From Defluviicoccus sp. bin129 (GTDB lineage Bacteria; Pseudomonadota; Alphaproteobacteria; MPNO01): 64,000 bases of DNA. The translations under genes and the position numbers were made by a program. Below, one piece after another: positions 13,652-38,620 of this stretch. Location: positions 36,400 through 100,399 of the forward strand of contig MPNO01000009.1 in assembly GCA_002239065.1 (NCBI GenBank), read 5' to 3'. Each line of letters begins with the position of its first letter. The stretch's first letter is position 1. A model generated the notes under the pieces. It saw only the letters and a list, made by a program, of their open reading frames with translations, was not told where the DNA came from and did no database searches.

Positions 13652-15091
13652 TCACTCCGGTTTCCCGCCGGGGACCGGCGTCGCCCCCGGGGTGCCGGTC
13701 TCGAAGGCGGCCTGCGGGCCGCCGAAGCGGGCGGTGAGCGCGTTCTGGTCGTCCTTGGCGCGGCGGTCGACGCGCTCGGGATCGCAGATCCGGCGCAGGA
13801 TCGCCTCGTATTCCGCCACCGCCGCGGGGTCCGAGGCGGCGAGGTCCGTCGTCTCTTCGGGGTCGGCCGCGAGGTCGAAGAGCTCCGGCTCGTAGCCGAC
13901 ATAGTGGATCAGCTTCCTCGTCCCCCGCCGCACCATGAAGGCGGCGCTCGGCGAGGCGGCGGCGTGGTATTCGCTGAACGCGACGCGCTCGGGATCGCAG
14001 GGCGCGGCGGCGGTGTCGAACCAGGACTGCCCGGGCAGCGCCGCCTCCTCGCCGGTCGGGGCGAGCCCGGCGGCGGCGAGCACGCTCGGATAGGCGTCGA
14101 GCAGCGAGACCGGGGTGTCGCAGACCGCGCCGGCGGGGATGTCCGGCCCGGCGAGGATCAGCGGAATTCCGGCCGATTCCTCGTACATGTTGGATTTGCC
14201 CCAGAGGCCGCGCGCGCCCACATTGTCGCCGTGGTCGCTGGTGTAGACGACGCGGGTGGTCTCGCCGAGCCCGACCGCCTCCAGGGTTTCCAGCACCTCG
14301 CCGATCAGCGAATCGACATAGGTGCAGAGCCCGAAATAGGCCGCCACCGCCTTCAGCCTGTCCTCCGGCGCCAGGTTGCGGTCGACCTGCTGGAAGTCGT
14401 CCATGCGCTGCAGCCAGGGGTGGCGTCGATAGCCGGCCGCCGGGTCGAGCTTGCGCGCGGGCAGGCGGTCCAGCGGGTAGAGGTCGTAGAACGCGTCCGG
14501 CACCACCAGCGGGAAGTGCGGCGCGACGAAGCCGACATAGAGCACCCAGGGCTCTTCGTCCCGCTTCGCCGCGTCGGCGAGCCACGCCCTGGCGCGCTCG
14601 GCGATCAGCCGGTCGTAGCGGTTGTAGCTCGATTCCCCCGGCCCGATCCGGTTCAGCATCTTTGCCGGGCGGGCCGGCGGCAGCGGGTCGCGCACCGAGC
14701 CCCAGACCTGGCCGATGCCGTCCATCACGTGCATCGGCTCGATCTCGCGGTCGAACCCCGAGTCCATGTCGGCGCCGCGATAGTGCAGCTTGCCGATCGC
14801 CTCGACCCGGTGTCCCTCGCGCCGCAGCCGGTGGCCCCAGCTCGGGATGGCCCCGTCATAGGGGTGGGCGTTGTCCCAGTAGCGCGTCTCGTGGACATGG
14901 CGCCCGGTGGCGAAGGCGGCGCGCGCCGGGATGCAGATCGGCGAGTTGGTGTAGGCGGCTGTAAAGCGCGTGCCGCGCTCGGCCAGCCGGTCGAGATTGG
15001 GCGTCCGCACCATGGCGTGGCCGTAGCAGCCGAGCATCTTCGGGTTGTGCTCGTCCGACATGATGAAGAGGAGGTTCTGGCCGTCCGGCAT
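13652..15091 (-). CDS. Type I sulfatase (formylglycine-dependent)
   Basis: A 479-residue alkaline-phosphatase-superfamily sulfatase. The C-x-P-x-R signature is Cys53-Ile-Pro-Ala-Arg57 in PICIPARAAFATGR, so Cys53 would be converted to formylglycine. Metal ligands are suggested by MSDEHN at the N-terminus and TSDHGDNVG later. Choline-sulfatase-like or aryl/alkyl sulfatases are closest in appearance. No sulfatase-maturating enzyme is in this window. Its ATG directly abuts the tctA stop (TAG-ATG), so it is the last gene of the tctB-tctA-sulfatase run. No signal peptide is evident. Confidence 0.93.
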   Translation of the reverse strand: MPDGQNLLFIMSDEHNPKMLGCYGHAMVRTPNLDRLAERGTRFTAAYTNSPICIPARAAFATGRHVHETRYWDNAHPYDGAIPSWGHRLRREGHRVEAIGKLHYRGADMDSGFDREIEPMHVMDGIGQVWGSVRDPLPPARPAKMLNRIGPGESSYNRYDRLIAERARAWLADAAKRDEEPWVLYVGFVAPHFPLVVPDAFYDLYPLDRLPARKLDPAAGYRRHPWLQRMDDFQQVDRNLAPEDRLKAVAAYFGLCTYVDSLIGEVLETLEAVGLGETTRVVYTSDHGDNVGARGLWGKSNMYEESAGIPLILAGPDIPAGAVCDTPVSLLDAYPSVLAAAGLAPTGEEAALPGQSWFDTAAAPCDPERVAFSEYHAAASPSAAFMVRRGTRKLIHYVGYEPELFDLAADPEETTDLAASDPAAVAEYEAILRRICDPERVDRRAKDDQNALTARFGGPQAAFETGTPGATPVPGGKPE

Positions 15092-17276: not shown

Positions 17277-18230
17277 CTACTGGGTGGCCGCCATCAGCTT
17301 CTTCGAGCCCGCGATGCCGTCCACGATCAGTTTTTCGAGCGCCGCGCCGGAGATCAGCTGCGGCCCGCCGAACGCGCGCTGGACGAACTGCGCCGCCTTG
17401 GTGGACTTGTCGGTCAGCACCGAGGCGACGGCGTCGGCGATGCCCTTGCGGGCGTCGGCCGGAATGCCCTTGGGCGCCACGATGAGGAACTTGGCGCCCC
17501 CGACATAGGGGATGCCGAGCTCGCCGAGGGTCGGCGCGTCCGGGGAGATCTTGAGCCGGGCGGCCTCGCCCGACATCAGGTTGACCAGGTCGCCCGCCCG
17601 GACGCCCTTCGCCTGGATGCCGGCGACCCAGCCGACATCGACATCGCCGGCGGTGATCGCGTTCAGCACCTTGCGGCCGCCCCGCATCACGACGGTGTTG
17701 AACTCGACGCCGTATTTCTGCTGGATGACGTAGGCGATGTCGGCGAGCTTCGCGCTCATGGCGCCGAGCTTTACCGTCGCGCCCCCCTTCGCCGCCGCGA
17801 TCACGTCCTCGATCGTCTTCCAGCCGCGGCCCGTCTTCGCGACGATGCCCATCTGCGAGCCGGCCGTCGTCGTGACAAAGGTGAAATCGTCGGCCGAATA
17901 GCCCGCCTTCTTCACCGCCAGCATGTTGTAGCCGAAGGTCTCGGTGACCGCGATGCCGATGGTGAGCCCGTCATTCGGCTGCGTCTTCAGCTTGCGCGCC
18001 ATCACCGCGCCGCCCTTGCCGGTGACGTTCTGCGGGATGATCTTCCAGCCTTTGGTCCTTTCCAGCTCGGTCGCGATCAGCCGCGCCTGGGTATCCGCAC
18101 CGCCGCCCGCGGCGAATGCGATCATGAAGTTGACGGGACCGCTCGGCTTCCAGGCGGCGGTCGCCGGTCCGGCGGCAAGGGCCAGGGCGCCGGCCGTCGC
18201 GACGGCCGCCCCGAAGGACTTGAAGGTCAT
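17277..18230 (-). CDS. tctC: TctC/Bug-family solute-binding protein, copy 1
   Basis: A 317-residue periplasmic binding protein of the Bug/TctC family with a signal peptide ending near AAGPATAAW. It captures the ligand for TctAB. The mature part contains the AFAAGGGADTQARL phosphate-like/carboxylate-binding loop and VAPKGIPADARKGIADAV. It is closely similar to the adjacent second copy (by eye about four residues in five identical), with differences concentrated in the ligand-binding half. AGGAGAG lies 5 nt before the ATG. A GTTG-N6-CAAC palindrome lies about 37 nt upstream. Confidence 0.93.
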   Translation of the reverse strand: MTFKSFGAAVATAGALALAAGPATAAWKPSGPVNFMIAFAAGGGADTQARLIATELERTKGWKIIPQNVTGKGGAVMARKLKTQPNDGLTIGIAVTETFGYNMLAVKKAGYSADDFTFVTTTAGSQMGIVAKTGRGWKTIEDVIAAAKGGATVKLGAMSAKLADIAYVIQQKYGVEFNTVVMRGGRKVLNAITAGDVDVGWVAGIQAKGVRAGDLVNLMSGEAARLKISPDAPTLGELGIPYVGGAKFLIVAPKGIPADARKGIADAVASVLTDKSTKAAQFVQRAFGGPQLISGAALEKLIVDGIAGSKKLMAATQ

Positions 18231-18376: not shown

Positions 18377-19330
18377 CTATTGCGTGGCCGCTATCAGCTT
18401 CCTGTTGTTCTCGATGCTGTCGGCGACCAGCTTTTCGAGCGCAGCGCCCGAAATCAGGCTGGGCCCGCCGAAGGCGCGCTGGACGAACTGCGCCGCCTTG
18501 GTGGACTTGTCGGTCAGCACCGAGGCGACGGCGTCCGCCATCCCCTTGCGCGCGTCGGCCGGGATCCCCTTGGGGGCGACGATCAGGAACTTGACGCCCG
18601 CGTCGTAGGGAATGCCGATCTCGTGCAGCGTGGGGATGTCGGGCGAGATCTTGAGGCGCGCGGTCTCTCCCGACACCAGATTGACCAGGTCGCCCGCCTT
18701 GACGCCCTTGTTCTGGATGCCGGCCACCCAGCCGAGATCCACGTCGCCCGCGGTGATCGCATTGAGGACCGCGCGGCCGCCGCGAAGCATGACCGTGTTG
18801 AACTTGATGCCGAACTTCTGTTCGGTCACGTAGGCAAGGTCGGCAAGCTTCGGACCCATGGCGCCGAGCTTGAAGGTGGTCCCCGCCCCGGCCGCCGCGA
18901 TCACGTCCTCGATCGACTTCCAGCCGCGCTCCGACTTGGCGACGAGCCCGAGCTGGGTGCCCGCCGTCGTCGTGACGTAGGTGAAATCGTCCGCCGCATA
19001 GCCGACATTCTTCACCGCGAGAACATTGTAGGTGAAGGTCTGGGTGACCGCGATGCCGAAGGTGAGACCGTCATTCGGCTGGCCCTTCAGCTTGCGCGCC
19101 ATCACCCCGCCGCCCTTGCCGGTGACGTTTTGCGGGATGATCTTCCAGCCCTTGGTCTTCTCCAGCTCGGTCGAGATCAGCCGTGCCTGGGTGTCGGCGC
19201 CGCCGCCCGCGGCAAAGGCGATCATCAGGTTGATGGGACCGGCGGGCTTCCAGGCAGCGGCCGCCGGTCCGGCGGCGAGGGCCAGGGCGCCGGCCGTCGA
19301 CACGGCCGCTCCGAAGGACTTGAAGGTCAT
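18377..19330 (-). CDS. tctC: TctC/Bug-family solute-binding protein, copy 2
   Basis: This is the tandem paralogue of the downstream tctC, also 317 residues with the same signal-peptide layout (ending near AAGPAAAAW) and the AFAAGGGADTQARL loop. Substitutions relative to copy 1 include TETFGYN/TQTFTYN and GAMSAKLAD/GAMGPKLAD around the binding cleft. This suggests that the two copies present related but different ligands to one TctAB permease. It has its own upstream GTTG-N6-CAAC site and can therefore be induced on its own. Confidence 0.93.
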   Translation of the reverse strand: MTFKSFGAAVSTAGALALAAGPAAAAWKPAGPINLMIAFAAGGGADTQARLISTELEKTKGWKIIPQNVTGKGGGVMARKLKGQPNDGLTFGIAVTQTFTYNVLAVKNVGYAADDFTYVTTTAGTQLGLVAKSERGWKSIEDVIAAAGAGTTFKLGAMGPKLADLAYVTEQKFGIKFNTVMLRGGRAVLNAITAGDVDLGWVAGIQNKGVKAGDLVNLVSGETARLKISPDIPTLHEIGIPYDAGVKFLIVAPKGIPADARKGMADAVASVLTDKSTKAAQFVQRAFGGPSLISGAALEKLVADSIENNRKLIAATQ

Positions 19331-20806: not shown

Positions 20807-22339
20807 CTATTCGCGATGTTCGGGAAACGCGTCGAGCAACGGCCCGGGCCGGGCGCGCACCATGTCCGTCAGCGCGCGGCGCAGCCCGCGCCGCCCCGAA
20901 TCGTCGAACAGGTTGTCCATCTCGTCCGGGTCGTTGGCGAGGTCGTACATCTCGCCGGCGCCGGATTTGAGGTCGACGGTGAGCTTGGCGTCGCCCGTGC
21001 GGACGGTGCGGAGCTGCAGCTCCACCCCGGCCCGGCTCGGATGCAGGTTCCATTCGCTGTAGGCGACGTCGCGGCTCTCCCCGCCCTCGATCAGCGGCTT
21101 GAGCGACCGGCTCTGGATGTCGTCCGGGCATTCGATCCCGGCGTAGTCGTAGAACGTCGCCGCGAGGTCCACGGTCGAGACCGGGTCGGCGACGACGCGC
21201 CCGGCGGGGATGCCGGGCCCGCGCGCGATCAGCCCGACCCTGAGCAGCCCCTCATACGGCGTCGGCCCCTTGAGGTAGAGGCCGTGGTCGCCCAGCAATT
21301 CGCCATGGTCCGCGGTGAACACCGCGAGCGTGTCGTCCGCGAGTCCGAGCGCGTCGAGCCGGTCCAGGATGCGGCCGACGCCGTGGTCGATGAAGGCGAT
21401 CTCGCCAAAATAATTGGCCGTCATCTCGGCCAGCTGGCGGTCGGTCTGCGGCGGGATCCGGCTGTACTCCCGGCGCAGGATGCGCGATCGCCCGGTGCGC
21501 GCCCGCGGCTCGTTCTCCAACGCCGCGCGGTGCCACCACGGCCGGCGGTCGAGGTCGCGCGCGTGGGTCGCGGAAATGTCCACCGCGTCGGCGCCGTGCA
21601 GCCGGCTCCAGGGCTCGGGGCAGTCGAACGGGTGGTGCGGGTCCGGGTAGGAGACCCAGAGGCAGAACGGCCTGTCGGGGTCGCGCCCGTCCAGGAAGGC
21701 GAGGCTGCGCTCGGTGACCCAGGTCGTGGAATGCCACAGCTCGGGCAGCCGCGAGAACCAGGTCTGCGCCGCCTCGGGCGGCGGCCCGGCATCCTCGGCC
21801 CACAGCGCCCACGCCTCGCCGTCGCCGCCCCGGCTCCAGAACCAGCGCTCGAAATGCTGGCCGCGCGGCGGCTGCTCGCAGGGCAGCAGGTCGTGCCAGT
21901 GGCCGAGGATCATCAGCTCGACCTCGTCGAAGCCCATATAGGGGCCCGACCACCCGTCGGGAAAGCCGGCCGATTGCTCGCGGCTCTCCGGCGCGCCGTG
22001 GGGGGTCGCCGCCGGGTCCTCGCCGAAATGGCCCTTGCCGATGAACTTGCCGGCATAGCCCGCATCCGCCAGACGCCGCGCCCAGCCGCGCTCGGCTGTG
22101 CGCGCGTCGAGGTCCACGAAATTGTCGTACGCGCCGTGGGTCAGCGGCAGCATGCCGGTCAGGATCGAGGCGCGCGCCGGCTGGCATACCAGGTTGGGCG
22201 TGATCGCCGCCGAAAACCGGGTTCCCGCCGCCGCCATCCTGTCGAGCCAGGGCGTCCGGATCCGCCGCCCCTCGAAGCCGAAGCAGTCCCAGCGGTGCTG
22301 GTCCGAGGTGATGAGCAGGATGTTGGGCGGTCGCGGCAC
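20807..22339 (-). CDS. Type I sulfatase, second copy (formylglycine-dependent)
   Basis: A 510-residue sulfatase with the activating signature Cys52-Gln-Pro-Ala-Arg56 and N-terminal metal-site segment LLITSDQHRWD; FTADHGELLGDHGLY supplies further metal ligands. It shares family but not close identity with the sulfatase at 13652-15091. No signal peptide is seen, suggesting cytoplasmic hydrolysis after uptake. It is first in the sulfatase-marR-MBL operon; GGGGAG precedes the ATG and a putative operator lies about 49 nt upstream. Confidence 0.93.
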   Translation of the reverse strand: MPRPPNILLITSDQHRWDCFGFEGRRIRTPWLDRMAAAGTRFSAAITPNLVCQPARASILTGMLPLTHGAYDNFVDLDARTAERGWARRLADAGYAGKFIGKGHFGEDPAATPHGAPESREQSAGFPDGWSGPYMGFDEVELMILGHWHDLLPCEQPPRGQHFERWFWSRGGDGEAWALWAEDAGPPPEAAQTWFSRLPELWHSTTWVTERSLAFLDGRDPDRPFCLWVSYPDPHHPFDCPEPWSRLHGADAVDISATHARDLDRRPWWHRAALENEPRARTGRSRILRREYSRIPPQTDRQLAEMTANYFGEIAFIDHGVGRILDRLDALGLADDTLAVFTADHGELLGDHGLYLKGPTPYEGLLRVGLIARGPGIPAGRVVADPVSTVDLAATFYDYAGIECPDDIQSRSLKPLIEGGESRDVAYSEWNLHPSRAGVELQLRTVRTGDAKLTVDLKSGAGEMYDLANDPDEMDNLFDDSGRRGLRRALTDMVRARPGPLLDAFPEHRE

Positions 22340-26644: not shown

Positions 26645-26962
26645 ATGTTTTTCGAGCGGAAATTTGGCGAACATCGGCGACGCCTGGAGCCGCGTCGTGA
26701 GCCGGGGTCCGGTGGAGCGCCGCGCCGGCACGCGGTTGAGGCGACGGCGAGCGAGTGGGCCAGGATCCGGGAGCTCGCGGCGGAGGCGGGCATGGAGCTC
26801 TCGCGCTACATCGTGCACCGGGCGAGCCGGCCGGACCCGCTGCCGGCCGTCGTGCAGCGCCGCGCGGTGCGCGAGCTCCTGCTGCTTGCCAAGCTGGAAG
26901 AAAGGCGGATGGCTGACATGGGGCTGGAGGAGCGCTGGCTGTCAATCGGCTTTGAAGTTTGA
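26645..26962 (+). CDS. Small ribbon-helix-helix/MobC-like protein, possibly plasmid- or element-derived
   Basis: A 105-residue basic protein. The segment VEATASEWARIRELAAEAGMELSRYIVHRA resembles the ribbon-helix-helix DNA-binding domain of MobC-type relaxosome accessory proteins. I recognise no partner relaxase. The first 25 residues are low-complexity and the true start may be later. Its 3' end overlaps, on the other strand, the tail of the broken ankyrin ORF. It is probably a remnant of a mobile element; expression is uncertain. Confidence 0.5.
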   Translation: MFFERKFGEHRRRLEPRREPGSGGAPRRHAVEATASEWARIRELAAEAGMELSRYIVHRASRPDPLPAVVQRRAVRELLLLAKLEERRMADMGLEERWLSIGFEV

Positions 26963-27393
26963 CCCCCTATTGGAGTGGGCCCCTGGGGTCGGACAGCTTC
27001 ATGCGGCGGTTTTGACGCGTCGTGCGCTTCCCTGAGCCGCCCGTAGGCTGCGCTGCCGGCAAGCTTCCTGTTTTTCTTCGCCAGGTCGAACGCGGTATCT
27101 CTGTTAATGGTAACCTTCGGATCCGCCCCGTTGTTCAGCAGGACCATGAGGACGGCCGGGTTGCTGCTCCGCCAAGCCGCCAGATGCAGTGGTGTGGCGC
27201 CGATCTTGACTTTCGCGTTCGGATCGGCGCCGGCCTTCAACAATGCCAAAGCGACCGCCGGATCCCGGTTGAAAATTGCCGCCAAGTGCAGGGAGGTCGC
27301 GCCCTTCCCGGTTCTGGCGCCGGGTTTTGCGCCGCCCTCCAGCAGTTCCGCAACGATCGTCGGATCGCTGTTGTACCGGGCTGCGAAGTGCAA
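26806..27393 (-). pseudogene. Ankyrin-repeat protein fragment
   Basis: Residues 1-120 read as three and a half ankyrin repeats (LHFAARYNSDPTIVAELLEGG, SLHLAAIFNRDPAVALALLKAG, PLHLAAWRSSNPAVLMVLLNNG) plus a capping AFDLAKKNRKL. There is no proper start: an in-frame TGA lies at 27400-27402 just before the first repeat, and the only start inside is a TTG in the middle of repeat one. After the cap the frame runs on through unrelated sequence antisense to the MobC-like ORF until 26806. The gene has lost its N-terminal coding part and probably its natural end. Confidence 0.65.
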
Positions 27394-28448: not shown

Positions 28449-29483
28449 TCAGGGGGGCTTACGCGCCAGGAAACAGTACAGAGGCGTGAAGATGCCGGTC
28501 GCGCCGCCCGCTACATAGGCGCCAGCGGTCCGGTCCAGCAGTTCGACGACCTTTGAGGAGCCCTTCGGGAACACGCCCAGCAGCTCAGCCAGCCTTGATG
28601 CCCGGATGACCGCCTTGCGACCCGCCGAAGTCCTCCGCAGGGCACTGGCCCGGGTCCCGCCCCAGACCTCCATGGGCCGGTACCACGGCGTAGCCGGACC
28701 GTCCTCCGCAATCGCCAGATTCACTCCCTCGACGATCCGGAATCCCGCCGATTCCAGAGCCCGGTCCACCCCGTCCATCGTCTCGATATCCTTGAGCGCA
28801 ATACCCCGCATAAGGTCCTGCTTGATGGACCGGTGGCGGTCGTTATCCGGATCGAATTTGCTCGTCATGCACATTTCCTGGCCCCAGAACAGGGCGCCGG
28901 GTTTCAACACGCGGTATATCTCAGTGAACGCGCCCGCCTTGTCCGGCGCATGGCATGTCGATTCGATCGCATAGCCTCTGTCGAAGCTGTTGTCCTCGAT
29001 GGCGCTCATGTCCATGAAGCTGCAGTGCACATAATCGACCATATGGTCGAGCCCGGCATCCGCGCTTAACGCCTTCGCCTTGTCGAGCTGGATTTCGCTG
29101 CTGTTAACCCCGACCACCCTGACGTCGGCCTCGCGGACGACGCGGCGCATCGGGCCGCCGACGCCGCAACCGACGTCGATCACCACCATGCCCGGGCGCA
29201 ACTCCAGCTTGGAGATTATCAATCGCTGGTGCCTAGCGATCGATTCCTCCAGGCTCTCGTGCCGCGACAGCGGCGCGAAGTGCAGGGATTCGCCCCACCC
29301 GAACACCATGAACTCGCTGCAAAGGTCGTAATATTCCCTGACGGTATCGGCGTGGTCGTAATCCGTCGTGGCACCCTCCGAAGACGCCCTGGCAGTCCAG
29401 TTCTCGAAGCGTTGCGCGCGACGGGAGACATTCGACCCGCGGTACGAGGTCTTTAGCCCGCGGTACAGGCTTCGCATCTTCAT
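28449..29483 (-). CDS. Sterol C-24 methyltransferase (Erg6/SMT-like)
   Basis: A 344-residue SAM-dependent methyltransferase that looks like eukaryotic Erg6/SMT over its whole length. All conserved SMT regions are present: YYDLCSEF...FGWGESLHF (51-69), SAM motif VIDVGCGVGGP (101-111), YAIESTCHAP (171-180), PWYRPM (266-271), and the C-terminal sterol-MT domain ending GIFTPLYCFLARKP (330-343). SMTs transfer methyl from SAM to C-24 of the sterol side chain, making ergosterol- or phytosterol-type tails. The ATG at 29483 has only a weak GGGGG site. It is flanked by IS remnants, pointing to gene transfer. A tocopherol or cycloartenol-like relative is possible, but the YAIE-TCHAP and C-terminal match favour SMT. 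Confidence 0.9.
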   Translation of the reverse strand: MKMRSLYRGLKTSYRGSNVSRRAQRFENWTARASSEGATTDYDHADTVREYYDLCSEFMVFGWGESLHFAPLSRHESLEESIARHQRLIISKLELRPGMVVIDVGCGVGGPMRRVVREADVRVVGVNSSEIQLDKAKALSADAGLDHMVDYVHCSFMDMSAIEDNSFDRGYAIESTCHAPDKAGAFTEIYRVLKPGALFWGQEMCMTSKFDPDNDRHRSIKQDLMRGIALKDIETMDGVDRALESAGFRIVEGVNLAIAEDGPATPWYRPMEVWGGTRASALRRTSAGRKAVIRASRLAELLGVFPKGSSKVVELLDRTAGAYVAGGATGIFTPLYCFLARKPP

Positions 29484-29733: not shown

Positions 29734-30249
29734 TCAAGCAGAGCCTTTGGCGCTGTGTGGTGTTGTCGTCCCAGTGATTGTACGGAACAGCTCGTCGCGC
29801 GCAGCGTTGACCGCGAGGGCCGCATCAACTTCGCTCTGGACGTAGGCAACGGCGTCCAGGCGCTCGAAGGTGGCCGGTCCGCAGCGCTGACCGAGCGCTG
29901 CGTCGACTTCGGCGAGCAGGCGGATTTCGGCCGCGGTGTAGCGCCTCGCGAAGGGACGTGCCCGCCCGGCGCTGCGGCGGTCGCGGATGCGTCCCGTCCA
30001 GCGGTGCCGGGCCATCAGCCGGGTGAGCTGCGCCCGCGACAGCCCCGTCATCTTCGCGAGGTACGCCTTCACCGCGCCTATGTCCGCCTTGCCCAGCGCC
30101 GCGTAAACGAACTGCACCAGGGTGCGCCGGATGAACTCGTAGGCCGATGCGCGGTCGGCGATGGCGAAATCCACCGTCTCATTGGCCTCGGCGACGCGCC
30201 GCACGTGCTCCAGGGTCTGAACCCGTTGTGTCTGTAGCGTTACGATCAT
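29734..30249 (-). pseudogene. Truncated integrase-type (rve/DDE) transposase
   Basis: The first 120 or so residues (MIVTLQTQRVQTLEHVRR, SAYEFIRRTLVQFVYAALGKADIGAVKAYLAKMTGLSRAQLTRLM, RARPFARRYTAAEIRLLAEVDAALGQ) match the N-terminal HTH part of a common proteobacterial IS integrase family. After CGPAT the normal continuation to the DDE catalytic domain is missing and the frame ends at residue 171. It is therefore a transposase remnant with an internal or terminal deletion, and it separates the methyltransferase from the P450 fusion. Confidence 0.75.
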
Positions 30250-30414: not shown

Positions 30415-30530
30415 GAATGAGAGCGGCAACCACGCACTTCATGGTAAACTTCCCGCGCTTCCGCGTGTGATCGCCTTTCGCGGGAGACCCGGCGCCCGTA
30501 TCTTGCGACCGCTTGGGATGCGAGGAGGCC

Positions 30531-32549
30531 ATGCCCGATACGACCGTGACGACCCAACCGCTGAGCCTGCCCGAAGAGCTCATCCTGATGCTGCTCAACG
30601 AGCAGAACGGGTATTTCCATCAGGTGCCCGGCTGGGACCTGAACTGCACCGTCGTCGGCGCGGTACTCGCCGAGCTCTCGCTCCAGTCGCGCATCGACAC
30701 GGATCTGGATTCGCTGCATCTGCTGGACCGGACGGACACCGGCGATCCCGCCCTGGATCCGTTTCTGAAGCAGATCGCGGACGAACCGGCCCAGCGGAAC
30801 GCCCAGTACTGGATCGAGCGGTTCGCCGGCCAGGCGGAGTCGATCATCGATCTGACCCTGGACCGCCTGGTCGGGCTGAAGATCCTGGAACACCATGACG
30901 GCGATTTCTGGACGCTGGCGACCGCGAGGTGGTACGAGGATTTGCGCGGCGGCGCCCAGGAAGGGACCGTCGGTCAGTTCATCAAGACGCGCGTCGTCAA
31001 GGCGCTCTTCACCGACGAGATCCCCGATCCGAGAGAGGTCATCGTCATCTGCCTCGTCAATGCGTGCGACGTCTTTCGCATCATGTTCGAGCTCGACGAG
31101 GAGACCGAGGAGCGCATCGCCTCCATCTGCCGGATGGACCTGATCGGCCGTTCCATAGCCGCCGCGGTCGCACAGAACATCTCGACCCCGATGCTCCGTC
31201 GTTCCACGCTCAACAAGAAGATACCCGTCGTCGCCCTGCGCCGGCTGCTGCTCAGCCCGCATTTGCGCAGCGGCAACATTCCCGCGGTCTTTGCCGACCT
31301 GGCGAAAGAATACGGCCCGGTGTTCGAGATCCGTCCGCCGTTCGCCAAGCCGATGACGTTCCTCGCCGGGCCGGAGACCAACCACTGGGTGCACCGGCAC
31401 GGGCGGATGCACCTGAAGGCCGGGGGCTATTTCGCGGATTTCGAGAAGGTCTACGGCGCGCATGGCGTGCTGCCGTCGCTCGACGGCGCCGATCACTTCC
31501 GCCTTCGCAAGGCGATGGGACCGGCCAATTCGCGGGGCCGGCTGGCGGGCCGGCTGGACGAGGTGTACGGCCTTGTCCGCCAATACATGGCGACCTGGAC
31601 GGTCGGCGAGACCTTCCCCGTGCGCGCCTGCCGGCGGATGATCAACGCGCAGCTCTCGCCGCTCTTCCTCGCCGTCGAATCGCAGGACATCATCGACGAC
31701 CTGATGGGCTTCAAGGAGCGGGCGCTGACCACCCACATCGTCAAGGCCCTTCCCAGGTTCATGCTGAACACCCCCGGGATGAAACGCCGCGCGAAAGCCG
31801 TCGACACGCTGCTGGAACGGATCCAGAGCGTCCATACCCCGGCCCAGCGGGCGGGTTGTCCGCGGAACCTCGCGGACGACTGGCTGAGCCTGCACGCGAG
31901 CGATCCCCAGCTGGTGCCGGAGGCCAATCTGCGCTTCGCCCTGTCCGCGGCGCTGGTCGCCAGCGTCTATCTCGGCGACGCGCTGAGCTTCTCGGTTTAC
32001 GCACTGGCGTCCCAACCCGCGCTCTGCGCGAGAATCCAGGCCGAAGCCGACGCCCTGTTCGACAACGGCGACCCCGACGGCGATGACTTCAACCAGGGCT
32101 CGATGGATGTCACGCACCGCTTCCTGATGGAGTGCCTCCGCATGTATCCGATCGTCCCGATGTCGATGCGGGACGTGATGAATTCCTTCGTGTTCGAAGG
32201 CTACGAGCTGCCGGTGGGGTCGAGGCTCTTTATCGCCCAGACGGCCTCGCACTACATGGAAGACATCTTCCCCGACCCCTTCTCGTTCGACATCGACCGC
32301 TATCTGCCCCCGCGCGAGGAGCACCGCGGCCCCGGCTACGCGCCCTACGGGCTGGGCACGCACAGATGCCTGGGCTCGCGCTGGATGGACCTGCAGCTGG
32401 CGGTGAACGTGATGATGATCGCGCATCACTTCACCCTCGAAGTGTCTCCCGCGGACTGGAAGCTCAAGTTCAGCCCGCTCCCGTCGATGAAGCCGAGCGA
32501 AAAGCTCAGTTTCCGGGTCGCCGAGCAGCGGCGCGACCTGCCCGCCTGA
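30531..32549 (+). CDS. GPP34 (GOLPH3-like) domain fused to cytochrome P450
   Basis: A 672-residue two-domain protein. Residues 1 to about 215 form a GPP34 domain (LSLPEELILMLLNEQNG; GAVLAELSLQSRI; DRTDTGDPALDPFL; IKTRVVKALF). In eukaryotes this domain (GOLPH3/Vps74) binds phosphatidylinositol-4-phosphate membranes; bacterial members are of unknown role. Residues about 240-672 are a P450: ExxR at Glu534-Arg537 (ECLR) and the heme loop YGLGTHRCLG with Cys613 as thiolate ligand. The usual I-helix AGx(D/E)TT is not evident; VASVYLGDALS stands there (near 475-485). The ATG at 30531 follows GAGGAGG. No redox partner is adjacent. Sterol context suggests a sterol or lipid substrate. Confidence 0.88.
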   Translation: MPDTTVTTQPLSLPEELILMLLNEQNGYFHQVPGWDLNCTVVGAVLAELSLQSRIDTDLDSLHLLDRTDTGDPALDPFLKQIADEPAQRNAQYWIERFAGQAESIIDLTLDRLVGLKILEHHDGDFWTLATARWYEDLRGGAQEGTVGQFIKTRVVKALFTDEIPDPREVIVICLVNACDVFRIMFELDEETEERIASICRMDLIGRSIAAAVAQNISTPMLRRSTLNKKIPVVALRRLLLSPHLRSGNIPAVFADLAKEYGPVFEIRPPFAKPMTFLAGPETNHWVHRHGRMHLKAGGYFADFEKVYGAHGVLPSLDGADHFRLRKAMGPANSRGRLAGRLDEVYGLVRQYMATWTVGETFPVRACRRMINAQLSPLFLAVESQDIIDDLMGFKERALTTHIVKALPRFMLNTPGMKRRAKAVDTLLERIQSVHTPAQRAGCPRNLADDWLSLHASDPQLVPEANLRFALSAALVASVYLGDALSFSVYALASQPALCARIQAEADALFDNGDPDGDDFNQGSMDVTHRFLMECLRMYPIVPMSMRDVMNSFVFEGYELPVGSRLFIAQTASHYMEDIFPDPFSFDIDRYLPPREEHRGPGYAPYGLGTHRCLGSRWMDLQLAVNVMMIAHHFTLEVSPADWKLKFSPLPSMKPSEKLSFRVAEQRRDLPA

Positions 32550-33929: not shown

Positions 33930-34751
33930 CTAGCGCACCCGCTTCAGCGCCGTCCGGGTGAAATCGCCGAGGTCGAGGTCGGTGCCGAACTCGTAGTCCG
34001 ACCAGTGCAGCACGGTGCTCTTGCCCGTGAGATGATTGTTCATCGTGATCTTGCCGCCGCGCCAGAACCGGTCGAGGTATTTCTCGTAATCCTCCACCGC
34101 CATGGTCTTGAGATGCGCGCCCCGGCGGTCGAAGTACTGGATCTTGATGCTGCGAAGCTCCTTCTTGTCGAGCCAGACCAGCTGCCTGGAATACCCCGAA
34201 TCCTTGCTCAGCGGGATACGCTCCAGGACGCTGCACCGGAGGTCGCCGCAGGCCTCGTCGCGCAGGAAGCGGTGCCTGAATTTCTCGACCTCGACGGCGC
34301 CCATGTCCTCGTAGGAGAATTCGCTGCCCATGAAGGAGCCGGACTGTTTCGACGAGCTGATGCGCTTGACCCGCTTCAGGGCGGGAAGATAGAGCCACTG
34401 CTCGTCCGGTCCGTCCTTGTGGGCGTGGACCAAGAACCCGGTTCCCCTGACATCGCGCGGGCGGTCGAATACGAAGATGGTGCGGTCGCCGTCGCCCTCG
34501 ACCTCGATGGTCTTGAGCCGGACTTGCCGACGGCTTTCCTGCCCCCGCTTGGTGCGCAACACCATGGTCAGGTTGGCGGTGAAATTGCCGAAACCCTTCT
34601 GGCGCTGGCGGGATTCGGTGGCGATCTTTCGCCCGGCTTCCTCGGCGTCGCTGTCCGCGCGGACGGCCGAAGGCTCGGCCGTCCAGGCAAAGACGGCGGC
34701 CAGGATGCCGCACCACAGCGGCATCGGGTGGGGGAGCGAGGCGCGAATCAC
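33930..34751 (-). CDS. LolA-like outer membrane lipoprotein-sorting protein (PF17131-like)
   Basis: A 273-residue exported protein with a signal sequence near MPLWCGILAAVFAWTAEPSAVRA and a LolA/LppX-like half-barrel: RQKGFGNFTANLTMVLR, DRTIFVFDRPRDVRGTGFLVH, YLPALKRVKRISSSKQSGSFMGSEFSYED. In this family the protein is regularly paired with MMPL/RND exporters and probably carries a hydrophobic ligand across the periplasm. The GTG start at 34751 has AGGAGG 5 nt upstream. It is the middle gene of the RND-LolA-FAD run. A sterol cargo is inferred from the neighbours. Confidence 0.87.
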   Translation of the reverse strand: MIRASLPHPMPLWCGILAAVFAWTAEPSAVRADSDAEEAGRKIATESRQRQKGFGNFTANLTMVLRTKRGQESRRQVRLKTIEVEGDGDRTIFVFDRPRDVRGTGFLVHAHKDGPDEQWLYLPALKRVKRISSSKQSGSFMGSEFSYEDMGAVEVEKFRHRFLRDEACGDLRCSVLERIPLSKDSGYSRQLVWLDKKELRSIKIQYFDRRGAHLKTMAVEDYEKYLDRFWRGGKITMNNHLTGKSTVLHWSDYEFGTDLDLGDFTRTALKRVR

Positions 34752-34847
34752 CGTTTCCTCCTGTGCTTCGCCTTCACCCAAAGTGCTTCGCGCATGGTAG
34801 CACGATTCCCGCCCGACCGGCGTGCGACATTGCGCCATGCGGCCCGT

Positions 34848-37175
34848 CTATTCGGCCTCGCGCCGCAGCCGTTCCCTGATCTGCGCGCTGGTCTCCCGCG
34901 CCCCGTCGAGCGCCATCAGGAGCGGCGGCAGGAGCAGGAAATCCGCCAGCAGGGCGACGATCACCGTGACTCCCACCAGCAGGCCGAGCGCCTGGTTGGT
35001 CGCCATCCCCGAGGCGCCGAACACCAGGAATCCCAGCGCGAACACGACGGTGGTCGCGAACAGCGCCTTGCCCACCGTGCGGAACGCCGATTGAACCGAT
35101 TCCGAGGGCAGCAGCCCGCGCTTCCTGCCCTCGACGTAGTTGGTCATGAAGTGGATCGTGTCGTCGACGATGATGCCGAACGCGATCGCGGTGACCACCG
35201 AGGCGGCGACCCCGACCTCGCCCACCGCATACCCCCACAGGCCCATCGCCATGGCGGCCGGGACGAAATTGGGGATCAGGGTGATCAGGCCGAGACGCAC
35301 GCTCCTGAACACGAAGAGCAGGAGCAGCGAGACGATGGCCATCGCCGTCACGGTGCCGATCAGCATGCCCTCGATGTTGCGCTGGATCGAACGCGCCCCG
35401 ACCACCGCGACGCCGCTGGCCTGGGTCGCCATTTCGGGCGCGTTTTGCCGGAACCAGCCCTGCGCGCGCTCGTCGAGCGCGATCTTCTCGCTGGTCGACA
35501 GGCTCTTGAGCACCACCGTCAGCCGCGTCGACGACCGGTCCACGTCGATCAGGTTGTTGAGGTCGCGGCCGACCGGCAGGGACAGCTCGTAGAGCAGCAG
35601 ATACTGCGCGGCGAGATCGGAGCTCTCCGGAATCCTGTAGAACGCCGGATCGTCGCCATGCAGGTTCTTGTTCAGCCGCTTCAGGATGTCGGCGATGCCG
35701 GACACATGGGCGATTTCGGGCTGGGACCGGAACCATGCGGACAACGCATCGACCTTGCCGAGATAGCCGACATCCGTGATGCCGCCCTCCCGCCCCGCGC
35801 CGAGCGAGTACTCGTAGGTTTCCACGCCGGTGAAGTTCTCGCTTATGAAGTCGGTGGACCGGCGGAACTCGTAGCTCTCGTCGAGCAGCTCGAGCCAGTT
35901 CTCCTTGAGTTCGATCCGCGAGATACCGGCAACCAGCACGACCACCAGGAAGCCGAAGCAGACCAGCAGCGTCGTGTGGCGGGAAACCACGAACCGCCCC
36001 AGGAGATCGAAGACATCGGATCTCCCGGCGCGCGGCGGCCGGGCACGCATCGGCAGGATCGACAGCAAAACCGGCAGCAGGGTCACCGAATAGATGAAGG
36101 CGCACAGCGCGCCGAACGCAACCATGTTGCCCATCACCTTGAACGGCGGCATTTCGGCGAAATTCAGGCTGAGGAAACCGATCGCGGTGGTCAGCGACGT
36201 CAGGAAGACGGGCCACGAATTGACTTCCAGGGAGTGTGCGGTCGCCTGTCGGCGGTCCATGCCCTGGCGCAGGCCCGCGTACATGCCCTCGATGATGTGA
36301 ACGGAATGCGCGACGGTGACCGCCATCAGCACGAACATCGCCGCGGCGCTCTCGCCGAACAGCTTCATTCCCGTCCAGCCGATGAAGCCCATCGCGGAAA
36401 GGATGACGACGACCATCATCACGACGATCGCCACTGTCCCCCAGATCGAGCGCAGCAGGATCACGGCGACGACCAGCATCGTCGCGAGCGCGATGGGGGC
36501 GAGGATCGCCATCTCGCCGTCGATCGCGTCGCGCATCGCCCGATTGAGGACGAGTTCGCCGGTCATGTGGTAGTCGACGTTCGAGAACTTCTCCCGCGCC
36601 TTGGCGGCGGTGTCATGGAGGAAATCGGTGACCTCGATCCTGCCCTGCTGCCGGTTGTCGGGCAGCGCGACGCTGACGACCAGCCCGGCGACGCGGCCGT
36701 CGCGGGAAACGAAGCGTCCGGCGACCTCCTCCGTGGCGAGGGCGACGCGCTCGATCCGTTCGATGTCCTGATCCGTCAGCGCGCCCGCCTCGTCGATCAG
36801 CGGTTCGACGATCAGCTCGTCCTCGCGGCCTTCGCTGTGGGTGTAGTTGGTGATCGAATCGACGCGGGTGACATAGGGCGTTTGCCACAGCCGCTCGGTC
36901 AGATCCTCGATGGCGACCAGGGTTTCGCGCGTGAAGATGGTGCCGCTTTTCGGCGCCACCGCGACCAGCGCCGCGTCGGACAGGGCGTAGGTGTCTTCCA
37001 GCCGCTCCAGCGCGACGATATTCGGGTCGTCCTTCCCGAAGTGGTTCCGCACGTCCACGTCGACCGCGACGATTCGCCCGGCGCCCGCGGCGAGGGCGGC
37101 CATGAAGACGAGCGAGAGCAGCATGGTCAGCCATCGCCGACCCATGACGAGCGCGATGAAGGATTCCATTTTCAT
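34848..37175 (-). CDS. RND/MMPL-family lipid exporter
   Basis: A 775-residue RND transporter of the MMPL/HpnN/Patched-like class, with about 12 spans: one at residues 15-37, an extracytoplasmic loop with TRVDSITNYTHSEGRE, a five-span block with AVTVAHSVHIIEGMY and TAIGFLSLNFAEMPPFKVMGN, a second loop, and a second block with FGIIVDDTIHFMTNYVEGRK. HpnN-type relatives move hopanoids, and RND transporters also serve bacterial sterol trafficking. It is first in the operon with the LolA-like protein and the FAD enzyme. The start is the first of two ATGs (37175, 37169); the ribosome site is weak. Confidence 0.9.
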   Translation of the reverse strand: MKMESFIALVMGRRWLTMLLSLVFMAALAAGAGRIVAVDVDVRNHFGKDDPNIVALERLEDTYALSDAALVAVAPKSGTIFTRETLVAIEDLTERLWQTPYVTRVDSITNYTHSEGREDELIVEPLIDEAGALTDQDIERIERVALATEEVAGRFVSRDGRVAGLVVSVALPDNRQQGRIEVTDFLHDTAAKAREKFSNVDYHMTGELVLNRAMRDAIDGEMAILAPIALATMLVVAVILLRSIWGTVAIVVMMVVVILSAMGFIGWTGMKLFGESAAAMFVLMAVTVAHSVHIIEGMYAGLRQGMDRRQATAHSLEVNSWPVFLTSLTTAIGFLSLNFAEMPPFKVMGNMVAFGALCAFIYSVTLLPVLLSILPMRARPPRAGRSDVFDLLGRFVVSRHTTLLVCFGFLVVVLVAGISRIELKENWLELLDESYEFRRSTDFISENFTGVETYEYSLGAGREGGITDVGYLGKVDALSAWFRSQPEIAHVSGIADILKRLNKNLHGDDPAFYRIPESSDLAAQYLLLYELSLPVGRDLNNLIDVDRSSTRLTVVLKSLSTSEKIALDERAQGWFRQNAPEMATQASGVAVVGARSIQRNIEGMLIGTVTAMAIVSLLLLFVFRSVRLGLITLIPNFVPAAMAMGLWGYAVGEVGVAASVVTAIAFGIIVDDTIHFMTNYVEGRKRGLLPSESVQSAFRTVGKALFATTVVFALGFLVFGASGMATNQALGLLVGVTVIVALLADFLLLPPLLMALDGARETSAQIRERLRREAE

Positions 37176-37473
37176 GCGGATGAACCAGCCCGTGAGCAGG
37201 CTCCGAACATAGCATTTCCCGGCCGATTCGCCACCGGCAATCCCCCGCGGCGCGCGGGCTCGCGCCGATGAAACGGCTCCCGCCCGGCGCCGGTGCCGCG
37301 GCGTCTGGCCGCTGGCCGATGCGAACCGGGTTGGGCTATGATGCCGGCCGGCAGACACGCGCGCCGTCGGTCGCCGCGTGCTTCTCACCCACCGTGCCCG
37401 GTCACGATGCGGAGGGCAGTCCGATACCCCGTCAGCACATGCCGTCGCGCAACCCGGGCTGACCGACCCTGCC
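37176..37473. other. Divergent intergenic region RND / Rieske
   Basis: About 300 bp separate the leftward RND operon from the rightward Rieske gene and should hold both promoters. I found no clear palindromic operator or riboswitch in it. Confidence 0.4.
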
Positions 37474-38620
37474 ATGGAGCTGCCTCGACAGGGACGCGCA
37501 TCCCCGCGGGACGCGACCGGGGATCGTCGCACAGACGATGGCGACGCCCGCCTCTTTCCGTTTCCCGAGGGATGGTATTTCGTCGCCGACCGCCGATCCC
37601 TGGCGAAAGAAGGACTGATTCAGAGGCAGTGGCTCGGGCAAGACATCGTCGTCTGGTCCGACGGCGCGGGGGCGGTCTGCGCGGCCCGCGCGGTGTGCCC
37701 CCATCTCGGCGCCTCGCTCGGTCCCGCGGCCGGCGGGCGGGTGCGCGACGGCCGCCTCGTGTGCCCGTTTCACGGCTTCACCTACGACGTCCGCGGCGCC
37801 TGCGTCGCGACCCCCTTCGGCCCGCCGCCCCCGTCGGCGAAGCTGACGGTCTTCGAGACCCGGGAAATCCTCGGCCTCGTCTTCGCCTGGTGGGGCATCG
37901 GCGGACGCCCGCCGCGATGGCGCCCTCCCCAGGAGCCCCCGGGGGGCGGCGGGGGGGGGGGCGTGGGGGGCCCCCCCGCCGCAATGGCGCCTTCCCGAGG
38001 ATCCGCCGGCGGGAGACGGGTGGGGCGGCCAGGATATCCGCACGATCCGGTTTCCCGGCCACCCGCAGGAGACCACCGAGAACTCCGTGGACCTCGCCCA
38101 TCTGCGCTACGTGCACGGCTACGACGCCGTGAAGCCCGTCGGAGAGACCACGGTGGACGGCGCGTATCTCCTGACCCGCTTCGACTTCAAGCGCCGCCGG
38201 CGCATCGCCGGGTTCACCGACCTGATCTACGACATCTCGGCGACCGCCCATATCCACGGGCTGGGCTATTCGTTCGTCGAAGTCGTCGAGCGCACGATCG
38301 GCATGCATTCCCGCCTTTGGGTGCTCGCCACACCGGTCGACGGCGAAGTCATCGACCTGGTCCTGGTCTCGCAGATGCGGGAGCTGCGCAAGCCCAAGCG
38401 GCCGATCTCCGGTCTCGGTTTCCTGCCGGTGAAGCTGCGCACCAGGCTGATGAGCCGGATCCTGAGTTCCTCGCAGGAGAGGGACGTTCGCCAGGATGTC
38501 ACGATATGGGGAAACAAGAGATACCGTCCGCGTCCGAGTCTGTCCCGTTCCGACGGCGAGATCGGCAGGTATCGGCGCTATTGCAGGCAGTTCTATCCGC
38601 GCGACTGCGACGGCGGTTAG
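37474..38620 (+). CDS. Rieske oxygenase, Neverland/DAF-36/KshA type (frameshifted in this sequence)
   Basis: The N-terminal part (frame of 37474) has the Rieske [2Fe-2S] ligands Cys75-x-His77 (CPHLG) and Cys97-x2-His100 (CPFHG). The C-terminal part continues one frame over (from about 37978) with ENSVDLAHLRYVH, giving the mononuclear iron triad region (Asp184, His187, His192 in the repaired protein), and the terminal signature IWGNKRYRPRP...YRRYCRQFYP typical of cholesterol 7-desaturases and KshA. Deleting the 67-bp period of an imperfect repeat at 37911-38009 gives one 359-residue protein, so the gene is probably intact in the organism. A sterol or steroid substrate is inferred. The missing reductase must be elsewhere. 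Confidence 0.8.
37911..38009. repeat. Imperfect 67-bp-period repeat with poly-G/poly-C, likely assembly artefact
   Basis: Two copies of a GCCGC-RATGGCGCC-type stretch (37911-37942 and 37978-38009) are offset by exactly 67 bp. The first copy differs from the second mainly by changes to G or C and then dissolves into a run of ten or more G, a further G run and seven C. The 67-bp offset shifts the Rieske reading frame by +1. Poly-G read tails joined during assembly would produce this pattern. Confidence 0.7.

Follow-up and report, generated by a model that had tools for sequence, protein, structure and literature searches.

A gene at positions 28449-29483 of a 64,000-nucleotide stretch of the Defluviicoccus sp. 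bin129 genome (contig MPNO01000009.1; the whole stretch is referred to as the window) encodes a 344-residue protein, P0001, that belongs to a separate clade of bacterial sterol-methyltransferase-like proteins, which we call T2. Judged from sequence comparisons, T2 combines the catalytic core of sterol methyltransferases (SMTs) with a rebuilt sterol-facing motif and recurs in several bacterial phyla next to a set of oxidase and transporter genes. On balance we favour the reading that P0001 would methylate the side chain of sterols that are taken up, not made, this being one of the reactions of a gene cassette with a predicted role in sterol tailoring.

P0001 is a sterol-methyltransferase-like protein

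The gene runs on the minus strand from a start at 29483 to a stop at 28449, and its classification as a T2-type sterol-methyltransferase-like gene draws on Pfam domains, trees, a residue alignment and full-length relatives. P0001 passes the curated Pfam cut-offs of both Methyltransf_11 (66 bits, cut-off 21.2) and Sterol_MT_C (PF08498; 61.3 bits, cut-off 21.7) and contains the class I S-adenosylmethionine (SAM)-binding core GCGxGGP. BLASTP gave 37% identity with yeast Erg6 (325 columns) and 42% with P0122, a second SMT of the same genome (311 columns). As the frame is unbroken, relatives align over the whole length and pairwise dN/dS with five relatives amounts to 0.21-0.28 (own Nei-Gojobori script), P0001 is far from a chance open reading frame (ORF). 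The first-pass annotation had located this real gene correctly, the four motifs it quoted (FGWGESLHF, VIDVGCGVGGP, YAIESTCHAP and PWYRPM) are all present, and its assignment to the sterol-methyltransferase superfamily with a C-terminal tail agrees with the Sterol_MT_C match above cut-off.

A fold search with the predicted model of P0001 (pLDDT 87.7) returned natural-product, terpenoid, N- and cyclopropane methyltransferases among the top 50 matches (RebM, MitM, AtmM, TleD, GPPMT and others). In a structure search with yeast Erg6, 60 of 65 matches were listed, and only one of these chains, 6f5z (231 residues, 57.9 bits), bears the name of a sterol methyltransferase; it is too remote to stand in for an Erg6 structure. 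Thus, structure does not settle the substrate. Two other families could be rejected, as P0001 scores 25.7 bits with the NCBIfam equivalog for geranyl/farnesyl diphosphate (GPP) methyltransferase (cut-off 400) and 38-52 bits with those for cyclopropane/mycolic acid methyltransferases (cut-offs 390-650). The top NCBIfam model, sarcosine/dimethylglycine methyltransferase, reaches 63.9 bits, far under its cut-off of 550.

T2 forms a separate clade that is widespread among bacteria

We calculated a 73-row tree from 28 T2 proteins, 35 other bacterial SMTs, five eukaryotic rows (three yeasts and the two halves of one soybean entry) and a generic methyltransferase outgroup. All 28 T2 rows form one clade (support 98/96), and the other SMTs, 35 bacterial and five eukaryotic, form a second one (95/92), with the eukaryotes joining one of its two bacterial groups. 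A 46-row tree without the longest outgroup rows resulted in the same split (T2 91/95, other SMTs 91/91). These topologies firmly support T2 as a separate bacterial clade and led us to reject P0001 as a plain Erg6 orthologue acquired from a eukaryote. In the best tree T2 lies outside the clade of eukaryotic and canonical bacterial enzymes, suggesting that it is sister to all other SMTs included, a position that is not proven; constraining T2 and the eukaryotes together in the 46-row tree was not rejected by the approximately unbiased (AU) test (p 0.245), and the tree program flagged long outgroup branches meeting the remaining rows in both trees. The first-pass annotation had proposed a phylogeny with eukaryotic SMTs, bacterial SMTs and tocopherol methyltransferases; our trees cover the first two, with generic methyltransferases as outgroup, and show T2 as a clade of its own.

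One scan of GTDB-species contigs found 514 stretches, 442 of them related at E<=1e-3, and the best 80 of these 442 were used as locus sample. At 63-76% identity they all belong to T2. Judged by record title, eight phyla are represented: Chloroflexota (37 loci), Gemmatimonadota (9), Pseudomonadota (7), Actinomycetota (7), Thermodesulfobacteriota (Dadabacteria; 5), Acidobacteriota (5), Nitrospirota (4) and Nitrospinota (1), the phylum of five loci not being named. A protein scan scored 8000 candidates, of which 2980 passed E<=1e-3, and those listed (120) have identities of 70-97%. When 385 genomes were drawn evenly from the class to which the window belongs, 10 had an SMT-type gene (E<=1e-40), three of which, including the source genome (G000), are T2 at an identity of at least 60%. 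The phylum labels require 17 changes on a quick T2-only tree with many weak branches, where seven would be the minimum possible.

Record titles of 30 of the 80 loci are prefixed RHO, COS, IRC or APA. The sponge hosts Rhopaloeides, Coscinoderma, Ircinia and Aplysina appear in the accessible part of Robbins et al. 2021 (PMC8163846), so that the prefixes apparently denote sponge hosts and many carriers would be sponge symbionts. This bacterial gene probably bears on symbiont sterols, as had been proposed at the outset, whereas the accompanying claim that bacterial SMTs are rare is contradicted by the 442 related stretches of a single scan and by the enrichment of SMT1/ERG6 in metagenome-assembled genomes (MAGs) of Ircinia symbionts, described in the available text of Kelly et al. 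2022 (PMC9531527).

Rebuilt sterol-facing motif and conserved core

For a residue-wise comparison in Erg6 numbering we aligned 94 T2, 54 and 17 canonical bacterial, 10 eukaryotic and 8 outgroup rows (86, 50, 9, 10 and 8 distinct ones, respectively). Like Erg6/SMT1 of yeast and plants, T2 proteins have a class I SAM core and a Sterol_MT_C tail and retain D125, G127-G129, D189, E195, E209, H90, H107, W85, F91 and W286. They differ in Region I (Tyr81-Phe91 of Erg6), which is described in the accessible part of PMC5711494 as an aromatic sterol motif directing methylation-deprotonation. T2 departs from this aromatic-rich motif, although W85, H90 and F91 persist: Y81-E82-Y83...F89 reads M-V-F...L, with Y81 replaced by M in 100%, E82 by V in 85%, Y83 by F in 76% and F89 by L in 100% of the 94 rows. 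Beyond Region I, Y223 is changed to Q (100%), W225 to M (100%), D249 to I (97%) and E246 to M (88%); E108 to Q is also fixed in T2, but is common to 70% of one canonical group. M59, L67, Q202 and M204 of P0001 correspond to Y81, F89, Y223 and W225 of Erg6. The alignment thus depicts T2 as an SMT core with a rebuilt sterol-facing motif, and the changes in Region I may alter the regiochemistry. The statement that the protein carries every conserved region of SMTs was too strong, and the designation Erg6-like C-24 methyltransferase is not supported as given, since the protein belongs to a separate clade and has other residues at Region I positions that are linked to C-24 methylation.

These residues also bear on the rival that survives best, namely that P0001 is an ordinary sterol C-24 methyltransferase which carries out the Erg6 reaction on desmosterol-type sterols, the changes in Region I being neutral drift. 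Similarity over the full length and the conserved catalytic core agree with it. Moreover, 22 of 45 carrier genomes (derived from 46 of the 80 loci) have no PF08498 match besides the T2 gene, so that it may replace the canonical enzyme. According to the available text of Brown et al. 2023 (PMC10070321), homologues were filtered there at 30% identity and E 1e-50, and 20 of 24 bacterial SMTs alkylated the sterol side chain (8/10 and 12/14), three of them reaching 24-isopropyl products; T2 proteins could pass that filter because of their 37% identity to Erg6, and some of the 24 enzymes may be T2 members. However, M59, L67, Q202 and M204 are fixed in 94 of 94 T2 rows, which does not resemble drift, and a further PF08498 match exists in the other 23 of 45 carriers (two of them with fragments only) as well as in the source genome. 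We regard an ordinary C-24 enzyme as having a real but minor chance.

T2 genes recur with a cassette of oxidases and transporters

In the window the SMT gene is accompanied by the following features.

29734-30249, minus strand: integrase-like fragment, 171 residues, no Pfam match, 39% identity across 80% of its length with an 'integrase' encoded by a Polaromonas plasmid
30513-32549, plus strand: GPP34 (GOLPH3-like)-cytochrome P450 fusion, 678 residues
32552-33910, minus strand: FAD-dependent amine-oxidase-like oxidoreductase, 452 residues (Amino_oxidase 65.6 bits; matches to LkcE and, weaker, to 2b9w, a 'putative aminooxidase')
33930-34838, minus strand: LolA-like outer-membrane lipoprotein-sorting protein, 302 residues (LolA_like 202.5 bits)
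34848-37532, minus strand: MMPL/RND transporter, 894 residues as listed, the true start probably lying further in (MMPL 128.6 bits; weak Sterol-sensing match of 27.7 bits, cut-off 22.3)
37558-37923, plus strand: Rieske/KshA-type oxygenase, 5' part of a broken gene (66% identity to residues 29-150 of the oxygenase of locus L056; Rieske domain 63 bits)
37982-38599, plus strand: Rieske/KshA-type oxygenase, 3' part in another frame (61% identity to residues 148-353 of the L056 oxygenase)

Four of these partners recur at T2 loci, and the window contains all four, the Rieske gene being broken. Using BLAST thresholds set by the author, we counted partners at those 50 of the 80 loci whose flanks reach about 10 kb on either side and found the GPP34-P450 fusion in 37, the Rieske gene in 38, the FAD oxidoreductase in 27 and an MMPL protein of either kind in 29 (21 + 8), next to ERG4/24 in seven and a canonical SMT in five. 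All four partners are present in 21 of the 50 loci and none of the tested partners in nine. The counts for all 80 loci are 56, 48, 32 and 39 (28 + 11), respectively, with ERG4/24 again in seven and a canonical SMT in five, and a LolA-like gene was recognised in two.

Within the 385 genomes of the class the fusion occurs in seven, all among the 10 that have an SMT-type gene (Fisher p 5e-13, a value that is too small as related genomes were counted singly). T2 gene and fusion are neighbours in G348 and lie on different contigs in G358, and in G355 a canonical-type SMT neighbours the fusion. SMT and fusion distances correlate over 51 loci (r 0.44), and none of 2000 within-phylum permutations reached this value (maximum 0.39).

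The identity of the partners leans to steroids. In a profile search the three best solved relatives of the P450 part of the fusion were CYP51 enzymes; the fold comparison of the fusion model spans the P450 part alone (residues ~231-678), and the P450 fold is not specific. The partner Rieske protein resembles KshA oxygenases in combining a Rieske with a KshA_C domain (87.3 bits), and its closest solved relatives are 3-ketosteroid 9alpha-hydroxylases (KshA). It is unlike SdmA, scoring 34.5 bits against an equivalog cut-off of 600, whereas locus L099 has a separate Rieske protein at 414.7 bits.

A GOLPH3-like domain joined to a P450 near SMTs is found in many phyla, and membrane docking would be a guess for its role. 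Judged by titles and abstract openings among the papers listed, the literature search gave nothing on a bacterial GPP34-P450 fusion.

The cassette meets sterol genes at some loci, and most carriers examined lack OSC

At three Nitrospirota loci (L099, L116 and L117) the T2 cassette is joined to de novo sterol genes. In L116 (14-7862) the SMT, the FAD enzyme and the fusion form one contiguous stretch with a reductase of the ERG24 type, a CYP51 that scores 355 bits against solved CYP51, a squalene-epoxidase-oxidosqualene cyclase (OSC) fusion (PF08491 88.8 bits, PF13243 189.5 bits) and a canonical SMT; the best NCBIfam model of the OSC fusion is 2,3-oxidosqualene cyclase (736.7 bits, below the cut-off of 851). 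In L099 (1-5670) the cassette adjoins CYP51 and ERG24 counterparts, SdmA- and SdmB-like proteins and a canonical SMT. SdmA (414.7 bits) and SdmB (303.3 bits) are the best NCBIfam models there, both under the cut-off of 600. An OSC fusion is located farther along the contig of L099 (G093:C55), and L117 likewise holds one.

For the OSC count the 45 carriers were supplemented by G000 and the same-genus genomes G002 and G003. An OSC is present in four of these 48 (G002, G089, G093 and G103), leaving 44 without. A full-length triterpene cyclase was found in 19 of the 45 carriers, 16 having only the hopene type (by score) and three both types; none was found in the remaining 26, four of which show short or weak matches. 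An ERG4/24-family reductase exceeds its cut-off in 34 of 45. T2 thus belongs with sterol genes, yet mostly lives where sterols are not made, which argues for the tailoring of acquired sterols.

The source genome (4.83 Mb, 122 contigs, 89% complete) follows this pattern. Its sole cyclase is of the hopene type: it scores 760.6 bits with the squalene-hopene cyclase model (cut-off 431.1), adjoins a squalene-synthase-family gene and is 29% identical to the OSC fusion. Neither an OSC nor a match to the squalene epoxidase family PF08491 was found in this 89% complete genome, and we therefore rejected a role of the T2 gene in a de novo sterol cluster there. The one ERG4/ERG24-family reductase (G000:C88:74987-76027; L010:8982-10040) belongs to a lower-scoring type (about 105-150 bits), one frequent among T2 carriers without OSC. 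The two PF08498 genes, encoding P0001 and P0122, are on different contigs; P0122 is a canonical SMT with a standard Region I (FYEYGWGRSFHF), and its gene lies between an amidohydrolase gene and dnaA. The P0122 locus (L011:6628-10901; G000:C76), adjoining dnaA and then dnaN, is an odd site for a lipid gene. Neither P0122 nor the cassette around the T2 gene had been noted in the first-pass annotation. In the same-genus genomes G001 (C107), G002 (C208) and G004 (C365) a squalene-epoxidase-OSC fusion, 72-75% identical to the L116 fusion from a Nitrospira MAG, adjoins a canonical SMT (loci L157-L159), and G003 has a T2 gene with both OSC and ERG4/24 matches absent.

The scarcity of cyclases among carriers (OSC as well as any full-length triterpene cyclase) is what one would expect if T2 methylated a non-sterol polyprenyl or terpenoid lipid and the cassette made a symbiont lipid unrelated to sterols. 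Likewise, Region I without its acidic and two aromatic residues would suit such a substrate, and P450, amine-oxidase-like and MMPL genes are frequent in other lipid pathways. Nevertheless, the sterol-synthesis genes adjoining the cassette in the three Nitrospirota loci, the KshA_C and CYP51 similarity of the partners, and the low scores with the geranyl diphosphate and cyclopropane/mycolic acid methyltransferase models all speak against it, and we consider this explanation unlikely.

Integrity and origin of the locus in the window

GC content at third codon positions (GC3) is 0.812 for the SMT gene and 0.808 for the integrase-like fragment, which sits between the SMT and P450 genes. Both values are about five standard deviations below the reference, 17 window genes chosen as native-looking (mean 0.913, sd 0.019). 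As, in addition, the T2 genes of the same-genus genomes G002 and G003 are on a T2 branch other than that of P0001, the gene likely arrived by horizontal transfer. The first-pass annotation had described the gene as flanked by remains of insertion sequences (IS). On one side this is supported by the integrase-like fragment at 29734-30249; the other side, where no further search was made, has an ankyrin ORF together with an ORF of weak NikA similarity.

Taken further, the SMT may have come with an insertion element and be a decaying import, the cassette no longer working in this genome, an explanation that is compatible with every other reading. The low GC3, the deviating branch and the Rieske gene split over two frames would fit. 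On the other hand, the frames for SMT, P450, FAD enzyme, LolA-like protein and MMPL transporter are open, and the SMT dN/dS of 0.21-0.28 opposes decay. The Rieske break (37923-37982) is a G/C-homopolymer stretch, apparently repeating part of its surroundings and of a type prone to assembly errors, so that it may reflect either decay or misassembly. Among the rivals decay is the least probable.

Elsewhere in the window, a lower-GC stretch at 26645-27393 contains the ankyrin-repeat ORF (26806-27393), which overlaps the NikA-like mobilisation ORF (below cut-off). Two proteins encoded at 13652-15091 and 20807-22339 are presumably sulfatase-like, and two similar 317-residue ORFs (17277-18230 and 18377-19330) lie in the region between them.

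Discussion

If P0001 acts on acquired sterols, the substrate of the T2 enzyme would be a sterol and the methyl group of SAM would be transferred to a side-chain double bond as in Erg6, given that the Glu/His/Asp core is retained. The altered Region I might direct the attack to another position or lead to the loss of a different proton. Oxidation or isomerisation of the same molecule would fall to the P450, Rieske and FAD enzymes, and the MMPL and LolA-like proteins could carry it between membranes.

Bacterial SMTs from sponge symbionts are already known from the accessible parts of Brown et al. (PMC10070321) and Kelly et al. (PMC9531527); the T2 clade with its cassette is a new variant. Like the enzymes of Brown et al., T2 proteins are bacterial, have the same domain pair and come in many cases from apparent sponge symbionts, and the Chlamydiae SMT that occurs without other sterol genes in that paper parallels the lack of OSC in most T2 carriers examined. 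The gene clusters given in its available text comprise erg and sdmAB genes, and GPP34-P450 or MMPL partners, both part of the T2 cassette, are not named there. The text available from Kelly et al. describes ERG24-CYP51-ERG7 clusters in 10 phyla of Ircinia symbionts, often flanked by SMT1/ERG6 and with signs of horizontal transfer. T2 is similarly spread over many phyla with such signs, but occurs mostly apart from OSC (4/48) and has the GPP34-P450, KshA-type Rieske, FAD oxidase and MMPL genes as partners. A clade with rebuilt Region I and this cassette is not named in the literature searched (titles and abstract openings).

A bolder extension is that T2 would be the second kind of sterol side-chain methyltransferase that is still missing for sponge holobionts, one that with the help of its P450, Rieske and FAD partners adds methyl groups at carbons besides C-24, above all at C-26. 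The 26-methyl sterols and other unusual sterols of sponges would then be completed by bacteria from many phyla and not by the animal. We consider this improbable. Among the papers listed, only Brown et al. 2023 is on point for C-26 sterol methyltransferases; its accessible text describes C-26 sterol-methylating proteins as still undiscovered and relevant to the sponge biomarker debate. If the extension were true, bacteria would complete the sponge sterols whose fossils are read as those of the earliest animals.

In summary, the T2 clade is widespread among bacteria, its sterol-facing motif is rebuilt, an oxidase/transport cassette recurs with it, and most of the carriers examined are unable to make sterols.
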